DNA of 36,950 bases, taken from the NCBI GenBank assembly GCA_016783745.1, contig JADHVZ010000020.1:1-36950 (forward strand), written 5' to 3'. This document shows positions 19,449 through 36,950 of the stretch, in pieces. The translations under genes were made by a program, and so were the position numbers. The notes beneath the pieces were generated by a model that saw only the letters and a program-made list of their open reading frames with translations, ran no database searches and was not told where the DNA came from. How positions within the stretch are numbered: position 1 is the stretch's first letter; the number at the start of each line of letters is the position of its first letter. The stretch comes from Candidatus Omnitrophota bacterium (GTDB taxonomy: Bacteria > Omnitrophota > Gorgyraeia > JAHIPI01).

Positions 19449-19542
19449 AAAAGGGGACAGACACTTTTTTTGTAGCGTTGTCAGGGACAGACACTTTTTT
19501 GAAGCTCTGTACGTAGCCTCAAAAAAGTGTCTGTCCCCTTTT
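19449..19542. repeat. Palindromic element with GGGGACAGACACTTTTTT units between convergent genes
   Basis: Two direct copies of the unit (19449-19470 and 19482-19500) are followed by an inverted copy (19520-19540). Unit 1 and the inverted copy match over about 22 bases. The element fills the gap between the leuA stop (six bases away) and the stop of the minus-strand gene, and the inverted T/A runs could act as a terminator on both strands. The same word is, from memory, common in palindromes associated with REP-type (Y1) transposases, but no transposase gene is visible here. Confidence 0.75.
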
Positions 19543-34788: not shown

Positions 34789-35349
34789 ATGGATAAAAAA
34801 AGAATCGAAAAAGCAGTGAAGATGATACTTGAGGGCATAGGAGAAGACCCCGGGCGGAAGGATCTTCTCGAGACGCCCAAAAGGGTGGCTGAGATGTACG
34901 AGGAGATATTCTCCGGATTAAATGTGGATCCGGAAAAGCAGCTTGAAGTCCTTTTTGACAAGGAGCATCACGAGATCGTCCTCTTAAAGGGCATCCCGCT
35001 ATATTCTGTATGCGAACACCATCTCATCCCGTTTATAGGAAAAGCTCATGTAGCATATATACCTAAAGGGAACAGAGTCACCGGGCTGAGTAAACTGGCG
35101 CGAGTGGTAGACATTCTTGCTAAGAGGCCCCAAGTCCAGGAGAAATTGACCACCGAGATAGCTGATATATTGATGAAAAAACTTAAACCCCTGGGCGCTC
35201 TTGTGGTAATAGAGGCGGAACATCTATGCATGAGTATGCGCGGCATAAAGAAGCCCGGCATAATGACGGTCACAAGCGCTGTTCGCGGAATATTCAAGGA
35301 AAACCACAAGACCCGCGCTGAGGCATTGTCCCTTATAAGGGGGTCATAA
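34789..35349 (+). CDS. folE: GTP cyclohydrolase I
   Basis: 186 residues, start 16 bases after mnmE; AGGGAG is the SD. Zinc and active-site residues are visible in [11 protein letters not shown] (Cys, His) and [11 protein letters not shown] (His, Cys), with [20 protein letters not shown] typical of the type IA enzyme. It converts GTP to dihydroneopterin triphosphate, the first step of pteridine/folate synthesis. It ends the mnmE-folE pair and is followed by two hairpins, one of them terminator-like. Confidence 0.96.
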
Positions 35350-35357
35350 ATAAGCGA

Positions 35358-35408
35358 CAGCCTGTCTTGGAAAAAGGAGACGCGGGAAGATAAAACCAAA
35401 ACAGGCTG
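35358..35408. ncRNA. Hairpin A of a tandem structured pair with a shared loop
   Basis: Stem CAGCCTGTCTTGG (35358-35370) pairs with CCAAAACAGGCTG (35396-35408), 12 of 13 Watson-Crick with one wobble or mismatch. The loop (35371-35395) is purine-rich: AAAAAGGAGACGCGGG... The next hairpin has an unrelated stem but nearly the same loop. Whether it acts as RNA or DNA is unknown. Confidence 0.55.
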
Positions 35409-35415
35409 CCAGGAA

Positions 35416-35473
35416 AATAATCCAACCCGGGAAAAGGAGGCGAAGGGAGAAAACCCGAGCAAGATTATTTTTT
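35416..35473. terminator. Hairpin B of the tandem pair; terminator-like
   Basis: Stem arms 35416-35431 and 35454-35469 pair at the base (AATAATC/GATTATT) and at the top (CCGGG/CCCGAG-type), with a 22-base loop AAAAGGAGGCGAAGGGAGAA. A T run (35468-35473) follows, so it could terminate folE transcription. It lies one base from the stop of the minus-strand gene, so readthrough on both strands meets it. Confidence 0.6.
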
Positions 35474-35474
35474 G

Positions 35475-35744
35475 TTATTCAGTTTTTGTGAAAATCCAGA
35501 TAGAAGAATCACCCCTCCTTGATTTATCGATCATTATACCCTGATCCCTTAACTCGGAAAATGTCTCTGCTCCAGCTCCTAATAGGCCCTTCTCAAGAAA
35601 ACCATCATTCAGGTCCAAAGAAAGAGAAGATACTACCCTTATCGACAGGTGTATCTCCGCTCGAGTGATCAAGGCGTGTGAAGTACCTAAAAAAATCAAT
35701 AATACCGCTACGACAATCAATCCGATCAACGCGTTCCTTTTCAT
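35475..35744 (-). CDS. Small exported protein under c-di-GMP riboswitch control (89 aa)
   Basis: Start at 35744 has GAAGGGGG nine bases upstream; starts at 35750 and 35753 are too near the SD and the longer frame to 35819 would begin in the terminator hairpin. The N-terminus is a signal peptide or membrane anchor (NALIGLIVVAVLLIFLGTSHA). The rest (ITRAEIHLSIRVVSSLSLDL, then FSELRDQGIMIDKSRRGDSS) is short and beta-like, family unknown. The c-di-GMP-I riboswitch, its terminator and a strong promoter sit upstream on the same strand, which ties expression to c-di-GMP. A surface or pilus-related component is plausible. Confidence 0.75.
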   Translation of the reverse strand: MKRNALIGLIVVAVLLIFLGTSHALITRAEIHLSIRVVSSLSLDLNDGFLEKGLLGAGAETFSELRDQGIMIDKSRRGDSSIWIFTKTE

Positions 35745-35792
35745 CGCCATCATCCCCCTTCTCACTTTTTGAGAGGAGGCAGAGAGTGTCGG

Positions 35793-35834
35793 CCGAAAAT
35801 AAAGAAACCTATTCTTCACTCAAAAGAATAGGTT
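35793..35834 (-). terminator. Intrinsic terminator of the riboswitch expression platform
   Basis: Minus-strand hairpin AACCTATTCTT (35824-35834 reversed) with AAGAATAGGTT (35806-35816 reversed), 11 bp perfect stem and a seven-base loop, followed by a T-rich tract (TTTCTTTATTTT). It lies between the aptamer and the start codon. Confidence 0.75.
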
Positions 35835-35837
35835 ATT

Positions 35838-35932
35838 TCGGGCTTCGGCAACTGACTACCTTCTCGCTTTCGCGAATTAGGCTCTAAAGTTTTGCGCCCC
35901 ACCCTTTCGAATGGTTTGCCTTTCTCGGCTTC
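35838..35932 (-). promoter_or_regulatory. c-di-GMP-I (GEMM-I) riboswitch aptamer
   Basis: On the minus strand the aptamer core reads GGCAAACCATTCGAAAGGGT, GGGGCGCAAAACTTTAGAGC, CTAA, a second hairpin TCGCGAAAGCGA with a GAAA tetraloop, and GGTAGTCAGTTGCC. These match the GEMM-I layout: GAAA tetraloop in one arm, CGCAAA...GCCTAA, and the closing GGTAGxxxGTTGCC. The terminator directly downstream implies control by transcription termination; whether ligand turns the gene on or off cannot be read with certainty. Confidence 0.92.
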
Positions 35933-35957: not shown

Positions 35958-35986
35958 AGTATACCACGCGAATGCGACAAAGTCAA
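35958..35986 (-). promoter_or_regulatory. Predicted strong sigma70 promoter for the riboswitch transcript
   Basis: On the minus strand: TTGACT (35981-35986), 17 bp, TATACT (35958-35963). It gives a leader of about 207 bases that holds the aptamer and terminator. Confidence 0.65.
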
Positions 35987-36144: not shown

Positions 36145-36666
36145 ATGAAGAAAGCAGTATTGATTTTGGGGATAATTGTTATCTGTGCATATTCTACAGT
36201 CGCAATGGCTGAATCCGTTGACGCAATAGTGCCATTACAACTGACTATTCCGTCACAATTCGGCTTCACGCTGGATAAGTATGCGCATGACTTCGGGACC
36301 GTCAATACAGGCTCTGGCGCGGAGGTAACAATAGGGATTTTCTGCCGTTCGAACCACGGCCTTGTTTGGCACATGGGAGTACAAGCAGACCCGTTCACTA
36401 GCACGACGAACGATATCATGCCAAGTGATCCCGGATTCAAAATGGCGGCATGGTCATGGGCCGAAGATCCGGATGATGCGGCTCAGGGTACGTTCAAGTA
36501 TGAAGGCCCTATTCCCAGCACGATTATGTATGACTTCTATGATTCTACGGAAGCGGAGGGCGGAGACCCGTTTGTTCCTATGACACTTGGGTTATATGTT
36601 AACGTTCCTTCGGCTCAAGCGTCAGGTCTTTATACAACAGACCTGATCATCACAATGCACGAATAA
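36145..36666 (+). CDS. Secreted beta-rich protein, unknown family (173 aa)
   Basis: Signal peptide KKAVLILGIIVICAYSTVAMA with cleavage before ESVDA; AAGGAGGAG precedes the ATG. The mature part is acidic and beta-strand rich: QFGFTLDKYAHDFGTVNTGS, GLVWHMGVQADP, and a C-terminus GLYVNVPSAQASGLYTTDLI ending ITMHE. The last strand pattern is like those of fimbrial/spore-coat-U-like sandwich domains, but I cannot assign a family. Transcribed divergently from the riboswitch gene and followed by a strong terminator, which suits an abundant surface structural protein. Confidence 0.75.
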   Translation: MKKAVLILGIIVICAYSTVAMAESVDAIVPLQLTIPSQFGFTLDKYAHDFGTVNTGSGAEVTIGIFCRSNHGLVWHMGVQADPFTSTTNDIMPSDPGFKMAAWSWAEDPDDAAQGTFKYEGPIPSTIMYDFYDSTEAEGGDPFVPMTLGLYVNVPSAQASGLYTTDLIITMHE

Positions 36667-36697
36667 TAGCTCGGGCACTGTTAGAAACAGATGTTGG

Positions 36698-36729
36698 AAT
36701 GGGGCAAGTACTACTTGCCCCATTTCTTT
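36698..36729 (+). terminator. Rho-independent terminator
   Basis: Perfect 12-bp stem AATGGGGCAAGT (36698-36709) with ACTTGCCCCATT (36713-36724), loop ACT, then TCTTT. It ends the secreted protein transcript. Confidence 0.85.
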
Positions 36730-36768
36730 AACCCAAAAGTTAGGAATCAAAAAAGGTTGATTATTTTC

Positions 36769-36822
36769 TTGACATATAGGCTCTGATATGATATAGTTGT
36801 TGTGAGGCCAAAATAAAGGCCT
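36769..36822 (+). promoter_or_regulatory. Predicted strong promoter with 5'-end hairpin
   Basis: TTGACA (36769-36774), 17 bp, TATAGT (36792-36797). A small hairpin AGGCC/GGCCT (36805-36822) with T tail begins at the predicted transcript start. The leader to the next ATG is about 115 bases. Confidence 0.6.
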
Positions 36823-36918
36823 TTTTATGTTCGCCTTAACTAACGACCTTTAAAAAGTGTTTAGTGACGACATAAAAACGGAAAAAACGAACAAAAAAAG
36901 GAAAAGGGGGTGACAAAG

Positions 36919-36950
36919 ATGAAAAAGCTAATCACGCTTTGCGTTACCGC
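36919..36950 (+). CDS. Start of an exported protein, cut by the window end
   Basis: ATG at 36919 with AAAAGGGGG eight bases upstream. Ten codons are visible: MKKLITLCVT, a typical signal peptide start. Nothing more can be said about the product. Confidence 0.65.
   Translation, partial: MKKLITLCVT

Follow-up and report, generated by a model that had tools for sequence, protein, structure and literature searches.

Hairpins located directly behind the stop codon of a riboswitch-controlled small gene have been recognized here as a real, conserved and previously undescribed RNA element of one Omnitrophota family. They were found in a stretch of 36,950 nucleotides (the window), contig C3 of an Omnitrophota genome, and the locus is common to all four genomes of the family, where it comprises a c-di-GMP-I riboswitch, a terminator, a hairpin that involves the Shine-Dalgarno (SD) sequence, a gene of about 90 codons for an exported protein, one or two hairpins and a convergent folE. 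Within their minus-sense loops the hairpins carry the 16S rRNA 3′-tail motif CCUCCUUU, so by their letters the loops are anti-Shine-Dalgarno (aSD) sequences. The explanation that accounts best for these observations, and to which we give roughly even chances, is a c-di-GMP-controlled 3′-UTR module which would be made only on riboswitch read-through, form the transcript end and offer its aSD loops to ribosome-binding sites (RBSs).

The features of the locus in the window are collected in Table 1. The RF01051 aptamer has been detected in all four genomes with scores above the gathering threshold (76.6, 73.1 and 66.4 bits in the three relatives). Matches to a sigma-70-like promoter, one of which lies upstream of the aptamer, numbered 3 against 3.1 expected by chance. 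The small protein has a hydrophobic N-terminus (signal or membrane segment) and a conserved C-terminus W[IL]FTKTE, and it matched no Pfam family, DUF1127 included. In the leader of its gene the strand CUGCCUCCUCUC (window) hides the SD sequence and carries the CTGCCTCCT motif, the same as in the 3′ loops of the relative L001; the 3′ loops thus repeat the cis aSD motif of the 5′ leader. The c-di-GMP-I leader (35745-35834, minus strand) contains two successive controls, the terminator and then the SD-hiding hairpin, both of which all four genomes retain. Divergent from the riboswitch gene, the window (36145-36950, plus strand) and L149, L150 and L151 encode exported proteins of about 170-220 amino acids which belong to no Pfam family. 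Behind the set, L150 encodes a WxL-interacting-like protein (weak match) and a T2SS-T3SS_pil_N protein, and in G003 the divergent exported-protein genes precede a protein with the T2SS-T3SS_pil_N domain; the set is perhaps a surface-fibre assembly locus.

Table 1 Features of the hairpin locus in the window
Feature	Position	Strand	Remarks
folE (GTP cyclohydrolase I)	34789..35349	+	Convergent; named by its own motif and relatives
Hairpin A, distal	35355..35411	-	16-bp stem TGGCAGCCTGTTTTGG/CCAAGACAGGCTGTCG, 25-nt loop TTTTATCTTCCCGCGTCTCCTTTTT; from fold, stem scan and covariation
Hairpin B, proximal	35414..35471	-	Outer 9 bp, internal loop, inner 4-6 bp, 22-nt loop TTTTCTCCCTTCGCCTCCTTTT; from fold and stem scan
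Small gene, 89 codons	35475..35744	-	Start put at the ATG behind SD GAGAAGGGGGAU
SD hairpin of the small gene	35745..35778	-	CTGCCTCCTCTC pairs with GAGAAGGGGG; from fold and the leaders of four genomes
Intrinsic terminator, after the aptamer	35799..35834	-	AACCTATTCTTTTGAGTGAAGAATAGGTT TCTTTATTTT; U-run in four of four genomes
c-di-GMP-I riboswitch aptamer	35844..35930	-	RF01051, 78.2 bits
Sigma-70-like promoter TTGACT-17-TATACT, TG before -10	35958..35986	-	Upstream of the aptamer; consensus match only

The strand of the element was assigned from its folding. The minus strand of the 131-nt hairpin stretch folds with -44.5 kcal/mol (z -6.3, none of 200 shuffles as good), whereas the plus strand reaches -29.9 (z -1.45), and this difference is due to wobble pairs: the stems of six hairpins contain seven pairs that are G-U when read in the minus sense, but not a single one that would become G-U in the plus sense. 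The sense-strand z values in the three relatives are -5.5, -5.4 and -3.7; the two strands of L001 fold nearly equally because its stems are devoid of wobble pairs. The minus-strand fold and the wobble pairs together imply that the element, if it is RNA, belongs to the small gene as its 3′ UTR and not to folE. The purine-rich loops described in an earlier sequence-only reading of this DNA had been taken from the wrong strand, since in the window only the minus strand folds better than chance and its loops are pyrimidine-rich (UUUU-YCUYCC...RCCUCC-UUUU; UUUUAUCUUCCCGCGUCUCCUUUUU in A and UUUUCUCCCUUCGCCUCCUUUU in B). An element of the folE transcript that would expose SD-like purine loops, either to a CsrA-type protein or as a ribosome decoy, is very improbable. 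The plus-strand loops do contain GGAG/GGAGG and the plus strand of L097 folds better than its shuffles (z -3.95), but every wobble pair lies in the minus sense, the plus strand of the window has the low z value given above, folE homologues elsewhere in Omnitrophota are not accompanied by the hairpins, and CsrA (PF02599) was found in none of the four genomes (assemblies 74-95% complete) while control genomes were positive. The CsrA-like GGA site suggested earlier is likewise not supported, as GGA and GGAGG lie on the worse-folding strand, the sense loops lack GGA and no CsrA was found in the four genomes; what had looked like an SD-like core is anti-SD instead.

The description of the hairpins as a tandem with unrelated stems has been confirmed, with 8 of 20 and 8 of 22 aligned arm positions identical between A and B of the window. 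Their loops agree at 19 of 27 positions, which mononucleotide loop shuffles reach in 62 of 5000 cases; to call them almost identical was slightly overstated for the window, but it is right for L001 and G003 (L097), two of the three tandem genomes, in which A and B share the same loop core (CUGCCUCC in L001 and CUACCUCC in L097; CCCUCURCCUCC identical in both hairpins, 0 of 5000 shuffles). The core that occurs twice is CCCUCUACCUCC in G003 and CCCUCUGCCUCC in L001, the A and B cores of the window being less alike. This agreement means either that both loops have the same partner or that they have been homogenised by gene conversion. In 381 kb of the genome, with 58 hairpins of strong stem, only A and B combine a long stem with a loop of 16-30 nt in which pyrimidines make up at least 85% (the stretches used for background statistics amounted to about 0.12-0.38 Mb per genome).

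Both stems and loops bear signs of selection, as far as the four genomes that carry the element allow a comparison. For hairpin A in three genomes 100% of the cells pair and four pairs are changed on both sides (1 of 500 shuffles); the count of covariation is confined to A because MAFFT, when given both hairpins in one alignment, puts the inner stem of B in the wrong place. In hairpin B the outer stem differs between genomes, each version with its matching partner (AAAATAATC/GATTATTTT, ACTAATCCC/GGGATTAGT, GAGATAGTC/GGCTATCTC). Between genera the identity amounts to 71-81% in the hairpin region, 62-70% in the preceding ORF, 71-75% in folE and 85-92% in the aptamer; the hairpin region is clearly above the preceding ORF in five of the six genome pairs and about equal to it in L001/G002 (71 vs 70%). 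The loops of B are 78-91% identical across genera and its arms about 50-70% in most genome pairs, while in A stems and loops are conserved between genomes to about the same degree. The structured motif with a selected loop, as surmised from the window alone, thus recurs in all four family genomes with compensatory changes in the stems.

The loops also bear on the view that the hairpins are only a two-way terminator or insulator which separates folE from the small gene, the loop having no function of its own. It draws on the way in which A and B fill the entire gap between the convergent stop codons, with spacers of 3 nt (stop codon of the small gene to B), 2 nt (B to A) and 5 nt (A to the folE stop codon); the hairpins had been correctly placed between folE and the riboswitch-controlled gene. 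It also draws on AUUUUUUU, which follows the distal hairpin of G002, on the U-run at the end of the distal hairpin of L097, and on plus-strand B, which runs into UUAUUUUUUGUU. Yet the hairpins do not look like intrinsic terminators as commonly defined (GC-rich stem, loop of 3-8 nt, immediate U-run): their loops of 21-25 nt far exceed ordinary terminator loops, and the U-run is clear only in G002, where it is antisense to the last codons of folE, partial in L097 and, on the sense strand, weak in the window and L001. Neither the conservation of the B loop while the outer stem changes nor the agreement between A and B is expected of a neutral loop, and we consider a pure terminator doubtful. The search of Rfam revealed no family at 35330-35500, the best E value at a permissive threshold being 0.49, far below gathering, with chance matches only.

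The tandem pair is present in three of the four family genomes and a single hairpin in the fourth. L001 (= G001), the nearest genome, has the same two hairpins in the same place with other stems, the pair of G003 was found by a covariance model built from hairpin A, and G002 (L111), with one B-type hairpin, was found via its small protein. The search of related genomes with a covariance model, proposed as a check in the sequence-only reading, has thus yielded further instances with compensatory stem changes in this family only: covariance models revealed no hairpin outside it (R1 on 292 genomes of the class, R2 on 384 genomes of the phylum), and weaker R1 matches there lacked the loop. The loop pattern alone gave chance matches in many genomes, none of those examined being within a comparable long hairpin. 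Neither a DNA search nor the covariance model detected dispersed copies in the genome of the window, this locus being the only one, and no such hairpins surround the other c-di-GMP-I loci in these genomes, which belong to a PilZ-like protein and to pilin-like genes. An element acting at the DNA level, be it a protein-binding palindrome or a mobile repeat, is hardly tenable: the inverted repeats are strong and share one intergenic site, which would suit it, and palindromic repeats do exist in the genome, but the element has a single copy per genome in one syntenic place with no dispersed copies, its loops are conserved in a strand sense, and in duplex DNA a G-U pair would have no meaning. We found nothing in favour of the DNA-binding site suggested before.

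Several other features were noticed in the family. At L121 1613-2297 and L115 1677-2291 further c-di-GMP-I riboswitches precede a gene that by eye resembles one for a PilZ-type protein, and that of L117 precedes pilin-like genes; in L121 a nearly identical palindrome (AGGGGACGTGTCACTTGTGGG...) stands on both sides of the riboswitch-PilZ-like unit (1277-1339 and 2428-2486). REP-like dispersed palindromes AGGGGACAGACACTTTTT...AAAAAGTGTCTGTCCCCT, of which there are several copies within the sampled part of the genome, lie at 19483-19538 of the window, L136 3966-4025, L147 13076-13134 and L141 61-114. Dispersed imperfect palindromes in which CGGTTTACGG/CGGTTTTCGG units enclose a short centre of variable sequence were seen at L139 9924-9994, L142 5369-5436, L146 13069-13140 and L132 7768-7847.

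The 16S rRNA of the window genome ends with GGAUCACCUCCUUUCUAAGG. Nine letters of this tail (ACCUCCUUU) recur in the loops of G002 and G003, and GCCUCCUUU is present in those of L001 as well as in loop B of the window; loop A of the window has the weaker GUCUCCUUU, with GUCUCC instead of CCUCC. When loop A was compared with 325 predicted RBSs of its own genome, the RBS of the small gene ranked in the top 0.9% and that of the divergent surface-type gene at 36145 in the top 1.2%. In the other three genomes the loops showed either no preference for their own or neighbouring RBSs or one that did not exceed that of the 16S tail (local background), and loops of foreign genomes often paired with RBSs as well as the cognate ones; on present evidence the aSD action would therefore be general. 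A specific target, sought by RBS pairing in the four genomes and by comparing cognate with foreign loops, was suggested in the window alone and inconsistently. Loop B (UCUCCCUU) is predicted to pair with the own SD sequence of the small mRNA (AAGGGGGA) over 8 bp, one of them G-U. Hfq was found in none of the four genomes, with assemblies 74-95% complete; aSD pairing does not strictly require Hfq. A c-di-GMP-gated two-loop mimic of the 16S tail that would repress translation in trans, with the divergent surface-protein operon as the first target and with Hfq and CsrA apparently absent, is unlikely on this evidence; if true, it would provide a second-messenger riboswitch with trans-acting targets.

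The conserved C/U-rich loop could also be the site of an RNA-binding protein that acts on stability, localisation or S1-like recruitment of the ribosome, with no base-pairing to mRNA. Two copies of the loop on one RNA suit a dimeric protein and the loop is strongly conserved, and neither Hfq nor CsrA was found as a known partner. The conserved core, however, coincides with the 16S 3′ tail, which a protein site does not need, and no candidate protein has emerged; we regard this explanation as quite unlikely.

In the 3′-UTR module that we prefer, transcription would start upstream of the aptamer on the minus strand, and the layout suggests that c-di-GMP, by raising or lowering read-through, decides whether polymerase passes the leader terminator. 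Upon read-through the mRNA of the small protein and both hairpins would be made together. The stems may protect or end the transcript and would hold open a pyrimidine loop of 21-25 nt, a copy of the 16S rRNA aSD, which would pair with SD sequences and lower translation initiation. Its target could be in cis, by the predicted pairing of loop B with the SD sequence of the same mRNA, or in trans, on other mRNAs with strong SD sequences such as those of the divergent surface-protein operon, and the module may be released as sRNA. The small regulatory RNA and terminator roles considered earlier are both plausible.

The kind of element is already known, and what is new is its place and its coupling to a riboswitch. 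Multi-hairpin anti-SD RNAs have been described from alphaproteobacteria (PMC3927594), among them the cuckoo/CcsR group with tandem hairpins, aSD loops CCUCCUCCC and variable stems (PMC3927594) and SmelA075/SmelA099/RS0680a with the same architecture and the same proposed action (PMC3927594), and CcsR of Rhodobacter is released by cleavage of the 3′ UTR behind a small-protein gene (PMC8625941, PMC10253847). Three of the four Omnitrophota genomes share with the cuckoo RNAs/CcsR1-4 (RS0680a, Rhodobacter) and SmelA075/SmelA099 (Rhizobiales) at least two hairpins, the same aSD loop and compensated variable stems, and with CcsR the location in the 3′ UTR of a small-protein gene. In contrast to cuckoo/CcsR, none of the seven Omnitrophota loops contains the motif CCUCCUCCC, and a longer CUCCC...CCUCC flanked by U stands in its place; the host gene does not belong to DUF1127, Hfq was not found, and a c-di-GMP-I riboswitch heads the transcript. 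By analogy the element would work like cuckoo/CcsR, a family of processed, stress-induced sRNAs, but we do not count it among them, since it has neither their loop motif nor a DUF1127 partner. A hairpin pyrimidine loop able to block RBSs is also known from RNAIII of S. aureus, CyaR and AbcR1, with their anti-SD seed loops (PMC3927594); the Omnitrophota element differs from these in that its hairpins are paired, have long stems and large loops, and follow immediately on a stop codon. The RF01051 aptamer, the terminator expression platform and the SD hairpin are those of c-di-GMP-I (GEMM) riboswitch genes, but of the c-di-GMP-I loci of these genomes this is the only one whose controlled transcript ends in aSD hairpins.

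As far as a literature search for 'Omnitrophota' and 'riboswitch' shows, no description of riboregulation in this phylum was found. If the Omnitrophota element is independent of the alphaproteobacterial RNAs, as it appears to be, the same solution has evolved again, in genomes in which Hfq and CsrA were not found and under a c-di-GMP riboswitch. If our reading holds, the locus would constitute a compact link from a second messenger to the control of translation.
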